From the NCBI GenBank assembly GCA_001797815.1, contig MGQK01000052.1:306-8668 (forward strand): a stretch of 8,363 nt of DNA, given 5' to 3'. Every line of letters begins with the position of its first letter. The first letter of the stretch is position 1. This DNA comes from Deltaproteobacteria bacterium RBG_13_61_14. GTDB taxonomy: Bacteria > RBG-13-61-14. Under the pieces are notes generated by a model. The model was not told where the DNA came from, did not search any database, and was given only the letters and a program-made list of their open reading frames with translations. Positions 3,739-8,321 of the stretch are shown here, piece by piece. A program made the translations under genes and the position numbers.

Positions 3739-3853
3739 CCCGTTTTGATGAACCGAACCCTATGATTGCATACAAGAACACGGCGAAAAATCGGCTGCCG
3801 AACGTAAGGGCACGGCATGCCGTGCCCCTACTCGGGGGGTTATGAAACAGCTT
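3725..3853. repeat. 129-bp element with perfect 17-bp terminal inverted repeats (MITE-like or leader hairpin)
   Basis: AAGCTGTTTCATAACCC (3725-3741) and its exact reverse complement (3837-3853) bracket 95 bases that contain the palindrome at 3804-3831. The left arm includes the last codons and the TAA of ileS. No protein is encoded inside, and no clean target-site duplication borders it; TGG occurs at 3722-3724 and at 3855-3857, one base off symmetry. The arrangement could be a small non-autonomous insertion, an inverted duplication of the ileS end made during such an insertion, or a folded leader of the downstream transcript. There is no T-tract for a classical terminator. Confidence 0.6.
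3804..3831. repeat. 28-bp palindrome of the GTAGGGGC...GCCCCTAC family
   Basis: GGGCACGGCATGCCGTGCCC (3808-3827) is a perfect palindrome. It extends outwards by GTA/TAC with one mismatched pair (3807/3828), giving 3804-3831. It shares its arms with the palindromes before ileS (595-654), although the central sequence differs. Palindromes of this kind are common between genes in many environmental genomes, and their function is unknown. An ATG at 3817-3819 inside it opens a longer frame into the antitoxin gene, but that start is not credible. Confidence 0.75.
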
Positions 3854-3882
3854 GTGGAAAGTTGACCGAAACCAGGATGGCG

Positions 3883-3902
3883 CTTCTTCGCCTCGGAGGA
3901 AG
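3883..3902 (+). promoter_or_regulatory. Small hairpin overlapping the Shine-Dalgarno site of the antitoxin gene
   Basis: CTTCTTC (3883-3889) can pair with GGAGGAAG (3896-3902 used, one G-U pair) across a 6-base loop. The paired 3' arm is most of the strong Shine-Dalgarno sequence GGAGGA (3895-3900), which lies 9 bases before the ATG at 3910. In RNA this could partly hide the ribosome site. The stem is short and could be chance; the Shine-Dalgarno itself is the reason for choosing 3910 as the start. Confidence 0.35.
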
Positions 3903-3909
3903 TTTGAAA

Positions 3910-4200
3910 ATGAAGTTCGTTACCTCCAGAGAATTTATCTCTCAGCCGTTGCGAATTCTCAAATTGGCTGAGAAGGAGAACGTAGTTGCCGTTTCCGCTC
4001 GCGGTCAAACCCACTATCTGATAACAAGGCTGGAAAAGGATGATCTGGAAGACTTGATTCTTGCCGACCACCTTGAGATTGAGAAGGACTGGAGGCGTTC
4101 AGAGCGAGAATTTCGTCAAGGCAAAACCATCCCGCTAAGCAGTATCAAAATTCCTATCAAGCGCCGCGATAAAAAAGAGAAATCACGGAGGAAGCGATGA
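3910..4200 (+). CDS. Phd/YefM-like antitoxin-type DNA-binding protein, no toxin partner
   Basis: The 96-residue product opens with MKFVTSREFISQPLRILKLA, followed by EKENVVAVSARGQTHYLIT. This is the pattern of Phd/YefM (prevent-host-death) antitoxins, which use the N-terminal fold to bind their own operator and a flexible C-terminal part to neutralise a toxin. The segment EREFRQGKTIPLSSIK (about residues 70-85) resembles the toxin-binding tail, and a very basic end ([13 protein letters not shown]) follows. The start at 3910 has GGAGGA 9 bases upstream; in-frame ATGs at 3817 and 3877 add residues foreign to the family. No toxin gene is adjacent: ileS lies upstream, and leuD begins on the ATGA overlap 4197-4200. 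Codon use is clearly more AT-rich than in its neighbours, which suggests acquisition. It may be an orphan antitoxin, or a regulator of the leu genes it precedes; the second idea is inference. Confidence 0.7.
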   Translation: MKFVTSREFISQPLRILKLAEKENVVAVSARGQTHYLITRLEKDDLEDLILADHLEIEKDWRRSEREFRQGKTIPLSSIKIPIKRRDKKEKSRRKR

Positions 4201-4697
4201 CTTTGAAAGGCCATGCCTGGAAATTCGGGGCGGATGTGGACACCGACGCCATCATCGCCGCGCGTTACCTTTCGGCCACTGATCCGGAGGAACTGGCCGG
4301 CCACGTCATGGAGGGCCTGATGCCGGATTTTCCGAACCGGGTGAAGCCGGGCGACATGGTGGTGGCGGGCAAGAACTTCGGCTGCGGCAGTAGCCGCGAG
4401 CACGCCCCGCTCGCGCTCAAGGCGGCGGGGGTCGCGTGCGTGATCGCCAGGAGCTTTGCCCGCATTTTTTACCGCAACGCCTTCAACCTGGGACTGCCGC
4501 TCTTGGAGAGCGCGGAGGCGGCGGACGGCATCGCGGCCGGCGACGAGCTCTTGGTGGACTTGGCCGCGGGCACGATCAAGAACCTGAGCCAGGGCACGGA
4601 ATTTCAGGCGCGGCCGATCCCGCCGTTCATGCAGGAGCTTCTGGCCGAGGGCGGCCTGATGCAGCACGTGATCAAGAAGATCCGGGCGGGAGGGTGA
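4197..4697 (+). CDS. leuD: 3-isopropylmalate dehydratase small subunit (archaeal-type short LeuD)
   Basis: With the large subunit LeuC this protein isomerises 2-isopropylmalate to 3-isopropylmalate in leucine synthesis. The 166 residues form the swivelling aconitase domain: [13 protein letters not shown] (13-25), the signature [14 protein letters not shown] (58-71), and [14 protein letters not shown] (88-101). The short length and the YL-x-x-TDP loop place it in the LeuD/HacB group first described in archaea, where the loop after YL influences whether isopropylmalate or homoaconitate-type substrates are used. Here the loop reads YLSA (24-27), which does not settle the choice; the leuB neighbour favours leucine synthesis. 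Its ATG overlaps the stop of the antitoxin gene (ATGA), and GGAGGA at 4187-4192 is only 4 bases away, suggesting coupled translation. No leuC is present in the window. Confidence 0.9.
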
Positions 4698-4703
4698 GTG
4701 AAG

Positions 4704-5768
4704 ATGGCGAAGACGCACCGCATCGCCGTGATCCCGGGCGATGGCACCGGCCCGGAAGTCGTGGCCGAAGGGGTGAAGGTGCTCACGGCCGCGGCCGACC
4801 GGTTCAGGATCCAGTTCGAGTTCCAGACTTACGACTTGGGCGGCGAGCGGTATCTGCGGACCGGCGAGGTGTTGCCGGAGGGGGTGCTGGCCGAGCTCAA
4901 GAGGATGGACGCGATTTACCTGGGCGCGATCGGGCATCCCCAGGTCAAGCCCGGGGTCCTCGAGCAGGGCTTGCTGCTCAAGCTCCGCTTCGAGCTGGAC
5001 CAATACATCAACCTGCGGCCGGTGAAGCTCTACCCGGGGGTGAAGACGCCGCTCCGGGACAAGGGGCCTTCGGACATTGACCTGGTGGTGGTGCGGGAGA
5101 ACACCGAGGGGCTGTATGCCGGGACCGGCGGGTTCCTGCGCAAGGGCACGCCCCAGGAGGTGGCGATCCAGACCTCGGTCAACACCCGCCGGGGGGTGGA
5201 GCGCTGCATCCGCTTCGCTTTTGAGTATTGTAAGAAGCGCAACAAAAAGAAAAAGCTCACCCTCTGCGGCAAGACCAACGTGCTCACCTTTGCCTTTGAC
5301 CTGTGGGAGCGGACCTTTCACGAGGTGGCCGAGGAGTACCCGGAGATCCGGACCGATTACGCGCACGTGGACGCGCTCTGCATGTGGCTGATTAAGAACC
5401 CGGAGTGGTTCGACGTGGTGGTGACCGACAACATGTTCGGCGACATCATCACCGACCTGGGCGCGGTGATCCAGGGCGGGATGGGCATCGCCGCCGGGGG
5501 CAACTTGAACCCGGAGGGGGTGAGCATGTTCGAGCCGATCGGGGGCAGCGCGCCCAAATATACCGGCCAGGGCGTGATCAACCCGCTGGCGGCGATCGCG
5601 GCCGGGCAGATGCTGCTCGCCCACCTGGGCCATGCCGCCGCCGCCGCGGCGGTGGAACAGGCGGTGGTCAAGACCATTCAGAATGACCTGAAGGACCTGG
5701 CCGCCGGCAAAATGGGCCTTTCCACCAGCCAGGTCGGAGATCGCGTCGCGGGTTACGTCTCGGGCTAA
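4704..5768 (+). CDS. leuB: 3-isopropylmalate dehydrogenase (isocitrate/isopropylmalate dehydrogenase family)
   Basis: This enzyme should oxidise and decarboxylate 3-isopropylmalate to 2-oxoisocaproate. The 354 residues start with MAKTHRIAVIPGDGTGPEV. Substrate-binding arginines appear at R95 (LRFEL), R105 (NLRP) and R131 (RENTEG, 131-136). The catalytic set is Y138, K190 (CGKTNVL) and Asp at 223 (VDALCMW), 247 and 251 (NMFGDIITDLGA). The nucleotide loop reads GGSAPKYTG with K285-Y286, where classic NAD-dependent LeuB has Asp-Ile. RENTEG is also typical of isocitrate and tartrate dehydrogenases, so LeuB function rests largely on adjacency to leuD. ATG 4704 is preferred because GGAGGG (4689-4694) is 9 bases away; a GTG at 4698 would add two residues but lies too close. 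leuD ends 6 bases upstream. A GCC-rich run encodes six alanines (311-316). Confidence 0.88.
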   Translation: MAKTHRIAVIPGDGTGPEVVAEGVKVLTAAADRFRIQFEFQTYDLGGERYLRTGEVLPEGVLAELKRMDAIYLGAIGHPQVKPGVLEQGLLLKLRFELDQYINLRPVKLYPGVKTPLRDKGPSDIDLVVVRENTEGLYAGTGGFLRKGTPQEVAIQTSVNTRRGVERCIRFAFEYCKKRNKKKKLTLCGKTNVLTFAFDLWERTFHEVAEEYPEIRTDYAHVDALCMWLIKNPEWFDVVVTDNMFGDIITDLGAVIQGGMGIAAGGNLNPEGVSMFEPIGGSAPKYTGQGVINPLAAIAAGQMLLAHLGHAAAAAAVEQAVVKTIQNDLKDLAAGKMGLSTSQVGDRVAGYVSG

Positions 5769-5786: not shown

Positions 5787-8321
5787 GTGGTGAAACGACC
5801 GTTCATCGTCCTTTCCGCTCTCTTCCTGCTGGCGCCGGCGGTCCTCTTCCCGCTCTGGCGCTTTGCGCTCAAGCCCCGTCCCCAATATCTAAGTCTGCAT
5901 ACCATCCCCTTTGACCCCATCCATGACCTCGGGAGCACGGCCGGCCGGCCCATCTTCTGGCTCGACGGCCAGGACTGGCAGTTCCAGCGCGAAGGCGACC
6001 GCATCTGGCAAGAGGGCATGACCGTGCCCGCCTGCTGGAACCTGATCCGCGGCCTGGAGGACTGGGACGGGGTGGCCCGCTACCAGAAGAGCTTCCGCCT
6101 GCCCGAGGGCTTCCGGCCCGCCCAGGTCCGGCTCCATTTCCGGGGCGTGCTCTACCGCGCCGAGGTCTTCCTTAACGGCCAGCGCCTGGGCAGCCACGAG
6201 GGCGGCTACACACCTTTTTCTTTTGACGTCACCTCCGCCCTGCAGCGGGAAGGCGAAAACCTGCTGGAGGTGGTGGTGGACAACCGCCTGAGCATGAAGA
6301 CCTTGCCCGGCCGGATCAAAGGCTGGCGCCATGCGGGCGGGATCTACCGGGAGGTTTACCTGGAGGGGATGCCGGAGGTATCCATCCAGGATCTTTTCCT
6401 GCAAGCGGAGCCGGAGAGAGGGAAGGGCAAAGTCCGCGGCCAGGTGAGCCTGGCCAACTTCAGGTCAGAACCGGTCGAGACTTCGTTGACCCTGGAGCTC
6501 TCCACCGCGAAAGGGAAGCTTATCACCCGGACCGAGGCGCCGGTCGTTCTGAGGCCGGGCACGAAGGAGCAGGTTCAGGTCTTGTCCCTGGAAGACCTGA
6601 AGATCAAGCCCTGGTCGCCGGACCATCCAGTGCTGTATCGCGCTCGCTTTCTCCTGGGCGAAGGCGGGGACGAGCAGGCGGTGGTCTTCGGCTTTAAGCG
6701 GCTTCAGGCGCAAGGCCGCGAGCTGATGCTGAATGGTGAGCCGTTCAAGGTCCGGGGCGTGAGCCGGCATGAGGACGTTCCGCGGACGTTCCGCACCCAG
6801 ACGCTTGCCGGCCTGGAGCAGGACCTCCGGATGATCAAGGCGCTGGGGGCCAACGCCATCCGGCTGGGTCATTATCCGAACCATCCGGCCATGCTCGACC
6901 TGTGCGACCGCTACGGGCTGCTGGTGTGGGAAGAGTCGCCTACCTGGGGCGACCGGTCGCCCGACTACGGCGACCCCGAAGTGGTGGCCCTGGGCGTCCG
7001 GCAGGTGCAGGAAATGGTGGGGCGCGACCGCAACCATGTCTCCATCGGGTTCTGGGGCGTGGCCAACGAAATCCCCACCGACCGGCCGAGCGGGGCCGAG
7101 TTTGTGCGGGCCGGCGTGGAGGCCGGCCGGAAGCTCGCGCCGGGGATGCTTTTTACCGCGGCCTCTTTCACGGGTGTGCGCGACCGGAGCATCGGTTATC
7201 TCGACCTGGCGGCCTTTAACACTTACCAGGGCTGGTATTATGGCTTTCCCCGGGATTTCCAGCCCGATTTCGAGCAGCTAAAAACCGCCTTTCCGGGCAA
7301 GCCGATCCTGATTTCCGAGTACGGGGCCGGAGCCCAGATCGGCTGGCACGGCGCTTACGGCGACCTCTACACCGAGGAGAACCAGGCCCGGACTTTGGAG
7401 AAGCGGTTCCGGCTGATCGAGGACGACCCGGAGTGCGCCGGCGGCTTCATCTGGCTGTTCGCCGATTTCGCCGACGAGATGCGCCTGCTCAATCCCCGGC
7501 CCTATTTCAACCAGAAGGGGCTGGTGGACTACGAGCGCCAGGAGAAGCTGGCTTATTCAGTAGTGAAAGAGTTGTTTCACTCCCCCGCTCGGGAGGTCCG
7601 GGTGCCGGGCCAAAGCCGGATCCTGCCCCGGGTGGTGGCGGCCGGGCTGGCCGCGCTCACCCTGGTCATGCTCTTGGGCTCCCTGGCCAGCCGCATCCCC
7701 CGGAGCTGGCGGATCCTGTTTCCGGAAAGCCCCAATTACCGGAAGCTGGTCCGGCGCGCCTTCTGGATGTCGGCCACCGCCGGCCTTTACCTCTTCCTGG
7801 TCTCCCGCATCGGGTTGCTCTCCCAGCCGCTGGCGTTGCCCGGGCCGGACCTGACCACGCTCCGCATCCTTCATGCAATCCTGAATTCCTCGCTCACCCC
7901 CGCCTTCGCCTTTTACGGCTGCCTCTGGCTCTGGCTCCTCTTCAGCCTGCTCGCGGACCGGCTCGGCCGGGTCCTCGGCGCCCGGCCCCAGCGGAGCGCG
8001 CTCGAGATCACCCTGGGCGTGGGCGATCCCCTGGCCTGGATCCTGCCTTACTCGCTGGTGCTCCTGGCGCCGGCCCTCTTCCCGGCCGCGAGCGGACTCG
8101 GCCTTTTCCTGGTTACCGGCACCTGGCGCGGCACTTTCAGCACCATCCCTTCCCTGGCCCTGGCCGTCGCTTTTTCGCTGGCGCTGGTGGTGCTCACGCT
8201 CAAAGCGGCGCTGGTTTTCCGCGCCGGTTTTCGGATCGGCTTTATACGAAGCTGCATCCTGATCCTGCTCTGCCAGGTGATCCATGCGGCCGCGGTTCTG
8301 GGGATTTTCTTTCTGATCTAA
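5787..8321 (+). CDS. Membrane-anchored glycoside hydrolase family 2 protein with polytopic C-terminal domain
   Basis: The 844-residue product begins with a signal-anchor helix (about 6-26, no lipobox Cys). A GH2 sugar-binding domain follows (about 55-205, with AEVFLNGQRLGSHEGGYTPF from residue 125), then an Ig-like domain (to about 310) and a TIM barrel (about 311-595). The acid/base is Glu428 in GFWGVANE and the nucleophile Glu511 in ILISEYGAG, so the hydrolase is predicted active and retaining. Asn575 and Lys577 (FNQKGL) match the N-x-K motif linked to uronic-acid recognition in beta-glucuronidases, though related motifs occur in other GH2 enzymes. Residues beyond 612 form about six membrane helices (616-635, 659-679, 703-724, 750-776, 788-811, 822-844) of unrecognised family. 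The catalytic part would be held outside the cytoplasm. Start is GTG 5787 or 5790, with only a weak Shine-Dalgarno; no ATG precedes the GH2 core. It lies 18 bases after leuB and may be co-transcribed. Confidence 0.88.
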   Translation: MVKRPFIVLSALFLLAPAVLFPLWRFALKPRPQYLSLHTIPFDPIHDLGSTAGRPIFWLDGQDWQFQREGDRIWQEGMTVPACWNLIRGLEDWDGVARYQKSFRLPEGFRPAQVRLHFRGVLYRAEVFLNGQRLGSHEGGYTPFSFDVTSALQREGENLLEVVVDNRLSMKTLPGRIKGWRHAGGIYREVYLEGMPEVSIQDLFLQAEPERGKGKVRGQVSLANFRSEPVETSLTLELSTAKGKLITRTEAPVVLRPGTKEQVQVLSLEDLKIKPWSPDHPVLYRARFLLGEGGDEQAVVFGFKRLQAQGRELMLNGEPFKVRGVSRHEDVPRTFRTQTLAGLEQDLRMIKALGANAIRLGHYPNHPAMLDLCDRYGLLVWEESPTWGDRSPDYGDPEVVALGVRQVQEMVGRDRNHVSIGFWGVANEIPTDRPSGAEFVRAGVEAGRKLAPGMLFTAASFTGVRDRSIGYLDLAAFNTYQGWYYGFPRDFQPDFEQLKTAFPGKPILISEYGAGAQIGWHGAYGDLYTEENQARTLEKRFRLIEDDPECAGGFIWLFADFADEMRLLNPRPYFNQKGLVDYERQEKLAYSVVKELFHSPAREVRVPGQSRILPRVVAAGLAALTLVMLLGSLASRIPRSWRILFPESPNYRKLVRRAFWMSATAGLYLFLVSRIGLLSQPLALPGPDLTTLRILHAILNSSLTPAFAFYGCLWLWLLFSLLADRLGRVLGARPQRSALEITLGVGDPLAWILPYSLVLLAPALFPAASGLGLFLVTGTWRGTFSTIPSLALAVAFSLALVVLTLKAALVFRAGFRIGFIRSCILILLCQVIHAAAVLGIFFLI

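Follow-up and report, generated by a model that had tools for sequence, protein, structure and literature searches.

The GH2 enzymes that have been characterised are regarded as soluble or secreted proteins; the 8,363-nucleotide stretch of DNA analysed here (the window) encodes a GH2 protein with predicted membrane helices on both sides of its catalytic module. The locus raises the question of whether such a protein is a single genuine gene product, what it would cleave and what its membrane part does. The frame opens with a GTG codon followed directly by a second GTG at 5790, and GGGAA lies ~8 bases 5′ of the start; no RNA elements were found in the window. The coordinates, residue numbers and helix count given in the first-pass annotation agreed with the frame, Pfam, hydropathy and AlphaFold2 (Table 1).

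Table 1. Features of the GH2 gene and of its upstream neighbour, with positions counted from the first base of the window.
Feature	Position	Strand	Evidence
3-Isopropylmalate dehydrogenase (leuB), upstream neighbour	4698..5768	+	NCBIfam PRK03437, 553.9 bits, cut-off 393
Whole gene, membrane-embedded GH2 protein, 844 aa	5787..8321	+	One open frame
N-terminal transmembrane helix, residues 3-25; uncleaved signal anchor or signal peptide	5793..5861	+	Hydropathy 2.35; AlphaFold2 helix 3-25; conserved in L044 and L045
GH2 sugar-binding domain, residues 91-193	6057..6365	+	Pfam Glyco_hydro_2_N PF02837, 2.3e-15
GH2 Ig-like domain, residues 198-304	6378..6698	+	Pfam Glyco_hydro_2 PF00703, 2e-10
GH2 TIM barrel, residues 310-597	6714..7577	+	Pfam Glyco_hydro_2_C PF02836, 3.7e-38; Foldseek best 6ncw, E 5e-45
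R359 (putatively assisting the nucleophile) and H362, active site	6861..6872	+	Invariant in three proteins; roles assigned by position after PMC12243196
NE motif, N427-E428 (acid/base)	7065..7070	+	In VANEIP; conserved in three proteins
Y480 to Y484, loop 6 tyrosines	7224..7238	+	Invariant in three proteins
E511, catalytic nucleophile	7317..7319	+	In ISEYGA; conserved in three proteins
W556, loop 8 tryptophan	7452..7454	+	Invariant in three proteins, also against soluble GH2s
R566 and NxK motif N575-Q-K577, beta-hexuronidase carboxylate-binding signature	7482..7517	+	Invariant in three proteins
Six-helix C-terminal membrane domain, without Pfam or PDB match	7620..8315	+	Hydropathy, AlphaFold2

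The same full-length architecture recurs in two other genomes (G001/L044 and G002/L045), as proteins of 873 aa each that are 41% identical from end to end, so that each of the three genomes examined of the window's phylum carries one such gene and the whole architecture is kept across two families of that phylum. The three GH2 domains stand in canonical order, all above the Pfam cut-off, and AlphaFold2, run on a 23-sequence alignment, modelled this part mostly at pLDDT >90. Both glutamates reported in the first-pass annotation, E428 and E511, are indeed intact, and the catalytic and beta-hexuronidase marker residues are all conserved in the three proteins despite their 41% identity.

The active site of GH2 hexuronidases comprises a nucleophile Glu, a strand 2 Arg, an NE motif, a His, a loop 6 Tyr and a loop 8 Trp, and uronic-acid specificity in GH2 is associated with an NxK motif and an upstream Arg; the combination of Arg, Tyr and NxK is reported to be hexuronidase-specific and absent from GH2_7, GH2_9 and GH2_12 (PMC12243196). 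The NxK motif, the loop 8 upstream Arg and the loop 6 Tyr of group I beta-hexuronidases are all present in the window protein, where N575-Q-K577 aligns with NNK of 6ncw and NRK of 6d8k. The closest solved chain by both sequence and fold is the GH2 beta-galacturonidase of Eisenbergiella tayi (6ncw/6ncx; ~30% identity), after which the Foldseek list consists almost entirely of beta-glucuronidases. This enzyme and the soluble GH2 beta-glucuronidases have domain order, catalytic residues and NxK motif in common with the window protein, whereas they are soluble, measure ~570 aa and lack both the N-terminal anchor and the membrane domain. Judged by the residues of its active site, the window protein probably acts on a terminal beta-linked uronic acid, glucuronide and galacturonide both being possible, under an NxK rule that derives from soluble relatives with ~30% identity to the window protein. 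The protein might instead be a membrane-bound GH2 exoglycosidase of other specificity, a beta-galactosidase or similar, with the NxK positions kept by descent. Annotation of GH2 by homology is frequently wrong and specificity has re-emerged repeatedly within the family (PMC12243196), and the best NCBIfam match, BetGlucuronLacZ4, scores 224.6 bits, far below its cut-off of 950; however, the hexuronidase-specific residue combination and the hexuronidase identity of the nearest structures make a different specificity unlikely.

Beyond the barrel, hydropathy and AlphaFold2 concur on six C-terminal helices at residues 612-633, 651-679, 704-729, 753-777, 787-813 and 819-843, in keeping with the earlier suggestion that the segment after residue 612 is a polytopic membrane protein; the positions derive from hydropathy and from a model whose pLDDT in this region is ~40-79 (50-65 over most of it). 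Modelled alone, the domain reached pLDDT 53, a low confidence explained by the existence of three sequences only. Aligned across the three proteins it shows 54 invariant columns, and invariant polar and proline residues (GDPL, QPL) occur among the six conserved helices. The positive-inside count places 15 of the 17 loop Lys/Arg residues of the domain in three inner loops and 2 in outer loops, and the N-terminus before the first helix is short and positively charged; by the positive-inside rule, this distribution suggests that the GH2 module faces the outer side of the cytoplasmic membrane. In the low-confidence model, the first C-terminal helix is followed by five helices with positive loops inside; Yip1 domains have five helices and a cytoplasmic N-terminus.

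We prefer, at a probability of roughly 0.55, to read the window protein as an exo-beta-hexuronidase that is embedded in the membrane and faces outward. The enzyme would be permanently embedded in the cytoplasmic membrane by the N-terminal helix and the six C-terminal helices, these seven keeping the GH2 module on the outer (periplasmic) side; there, E511 as nucleophile and E428 as acid/base would cleave a terminal beta-linked uronic acid whose carboxylate would be held by N575/K577, R566 and Tyr480/484. The N-terminal helix may alternatively be a signal peptide that is cleaved off. The substrate may be a glycan close to the membrane, either an oligosaccharide on its way into the periplasm or a glycan that is being assembled or turned over. 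The six helices would then act not as a transporter but most likely as a platform, either to position the enzyme or to bind a partner or a lipid-linked substrate, since relatives without catalysis still keep a membrane domain.

These relatives come from a whole-protein search of 60 varied genomes, which returned additional GH2-like proteins carrying a single helix at the N-terminus and about six at the C-terminus. The family to which they belong, here called the sister family, takes in L137, L139, L142, L143, L145, L148 and L191-L222. Its members match the same Pfam GH2 domains as the window protein, more weakly, and a profile of their C-terminal domain gave 13 matches in 290 genomes. The profile also placed the family in 35 of the 40 genomes of one phylum, one copy each and including 22 of 23 near-complete ones, and in five of six genomes of another. 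None of 45 distinct sister loci keeps both catalytic glutamates; the acid/base Glu is present in 19 of them, and no clear alignment shows Glu at the nucleophile position, the divergent L139 being ambiguous. At 33 of the 45 loci, drawn from several phyla, the next gene is smc, recognised by its start MYLSKLEIxGFKSFA and often lying within 5-60 bases (L137, L139, L142, L143, L145, L148, L191, L193-L196, L198, L199, L201-L217 and L220-L222); the smc-adjacent inactive proteins measure ~815-930 aa. The sister family is thus like the window protein in its N-terminal helix, GH2-like module and six C-terminal helices, but differs from it in the lost catalytic glutamates, the smc neighbourhood and a recognisable Yip1-like domain. 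In the window's phylum smc is not beside the GH2 gene, the two lying on separate contigs in G000, G001 and G002, and no GH2-membrane gene was found just upstream of smc in G000 or G001. The rBAT and 4F2hc heavy chains carry a glycosidase-like ectodomain on a membrane anchor, are catalytically dead and assist a membrane partner; they offer an analogy for the inactive sister family, with a GH13 fold, one helix and a eukaryotic distribution, and we claim no homology. Literature searches in an open library turned up nothing on a pairing of GH2 with membrane domains or with smc.

Because the sister gene is kept in single copy although catalysis has been lost, the architecture appears to have a role independent of catalysis. 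The window protein could likewise serve as a glycan-binding receptor, or assist membrane partners as a scaffold or chaperone, its intact active site being used for binding and not for cleavage; such a role would fit a sister family of the same layout in which every member examined lacks one or both catalytic glutamates and which is nevertheless maintained phylum-wide. Conservation of every catalytic and substrate residue in three proteins over 41% identity tells against it, and the retention of both glutamates in 3/3 window-type proteins as opposed to 0/45 sister loci points to selection for activity, which makes a purely binding protein rather improbable and leaves the exo-beta-hexuronidase as the better account.

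The origin of the membrane domain was approached by profile comparison. The Pfam search of the window's C-terminal domain matched no family, and Foldseek comparison of that domain alone with solved folds gave a best E of 0.85, the model being too poor for the purpose; the opinion that this is no usual GH2 accessory domain thus stands. The sister C-terminal domain, by comparison, is related to Yip1 (PF04893) in profile-profile alignment (p = 9e-9; reversed controls 0.24-0.3), with sub-threshold Pfam Yip1 matches in 5 of 13 sister domains, and corresponds to the five helices of Yip1 after one extra helix, as a remote relative. The window's own domain appears to share helix count and topology with the sister domain, but its match to Yip1 is not significant (p = 0.38, like the reversed controls, from three sequences with little power), and direct membership in Yip1 is unsupported. 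The Yip1-like character proposed in the first-pass annotation is in this way supported indirectly, through the relationship of the sister domain to Yip1, and not by the window domain itself. Fusion of a Yip1 protein to a glycosidase has, to our knowledge, not been described. Compared with each other, the window and sister domains gave a weak collinear match (p = 0.047; reversed controls 0.18-0.22). As a separate observation, the sister domain of L137 (L137:8148-8933) is weakly similar to DUF4271 (E 0.005), which hints at kinship between DUF4271 and Yip1.

The six conserved helices with their invariant GDPL and QPL residues would also suit a transporter or channel whose substrate the GH2 part processes or gates. 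No transporter family was matched in Pfam or among PDB folds, the fold search having used the low-confidence model, and the sister domain is related to Yip1, which is not known as a transporter; we consider this very unlikely, and the transporter-like or signalling module initially envisaged found no evidence in its favour.

In a tree of 44 GH2 modules, the three window-type proteins are monophyletic (100/100) and branch together with the inactive membrane family (96/92), and forcing them into the nearest soluble clade was rejected (AU p = 0.018). A common ancestry of the window-type and inactive membrane GH2 modules, apart from soluble GH2s, is supported, not proven, by this result, since long branches and compositional bias remain and the longest-branched members were left out. 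The simplest history would be one fusion event, with catalysis kept in the window's phylum and lost elsewhere; two independent GH2-membrane fusions would also be compatible with the data. An HMM of the window-type C-terminal domain, searched in 386 and 289 genomes, matched only the three proteins of the window's phylum, bar one weak match in G156 (65 residues, E 8e-5, in an 84-aa frame) that was taken as chance, and a genome-contig scan with the window protein as single query gave no match. On sequence evidence, the window-type proteins would be the one branch found with an intact active site in a widespread and so far undescribed membrane GH2 family. Assembly or sequencing error joining two genes, which has nothing in its favour beyond the unusual architecture, is rejected as practically negligible, because the same fusion with a conserved junction in L044 and L045, and numerous distant genomes that share the layout, show the fusion to be neither chance nor a sequencing join, and the continuous 844-codon frame first described is confirmed. 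Both observations that the first-pass annotation named as counting against it turned out the other way: membrane helices are predicted after residue 612, and homologues have the fusion.

Among the GH2 structures and families searched, the architecture has no precedent, while the catalyst belongs to a known family. A survey of GH2 subfamilies removed proteins with transmembrane domains from its secretion analysis (PMC12243196), so that a GH2-membrane architecture is easily missed. The window protein is a case of a glycosidase built into a polytopic membrane protein, and window-type proteins and their inactive relatives provide a natural comparison of a membrane GH2 scaffold with and without catalysis. 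The inactive branch, phylum-wide in single copy beside smc, is the most surprising by-product and constitutes a gene-neighbourhood lead. In a speculative and distinctly doubtful extension, the window protein would be an active survivor of an ancient membrane GH2 family that turned into a single-copy, smc-linked pseudoenzyme in several phyla, a family that might link envelope glycan sensing or processing with chromosome segregation or cell growth.

Other combinations of GH2 and membrane helices were also encountered. The PADLOC profile CARF_Beta-galactosidase_LolE_TM (PDLC01990) matches window positions 6084-7292, within the GH2 region, at 2e-20 and stands for a known arrangement in which a GH2 part is joined to membrane helices, as in the window protein. 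The profile spans 1791 positions and, by its name, includes CARF and LolE parts, and it has no match beyond the GH2 region of the window; a defence-system reading was rejected, as the GH2 part alone matches. An archaeal GH2 protein of 772 aa (L048:1530-3845) has a signal-like helix, three hydrophobic helices after the barrel and the catalytic glutamates, and is apparently a separate, smaller membrane GH2 version.

The gene neighbourhood in the window differs from that in the other two genomes of its phylum. In the window, leuB ends 18 bases before the GH2 gene, and is absent beside the orthologue in L044 and L045, where a CCA-adding-enzyme-like gene, recognised by eye, lies downstream; leuB is probably functionally unrelated. 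No polysaccharide or glycan-synthesis gene cluster was seen around the GH2 gene in the window, L044 or L045. With its neighbours differing, the gene travels alone, and hence no operon names the substrate. A leuD-leuB tandem (window 4197-5768) stands just before the GH2 gene, and read-through transcription is possible. Further upstream, a small frame (window 3817-4200) without Pfam match has a core, from MKFVTSREF, that by eye resembles an antitoxin of the prevent-host-death type. Just downstream of the window, on the opposite strand, L150:2880-8447 encodes a large protein in a frame of ~1855 aa that includes a masked stretch and carries two EF-hand repeats (LDADGN..., LDGNGI...), dockerin-like as judged by eye.
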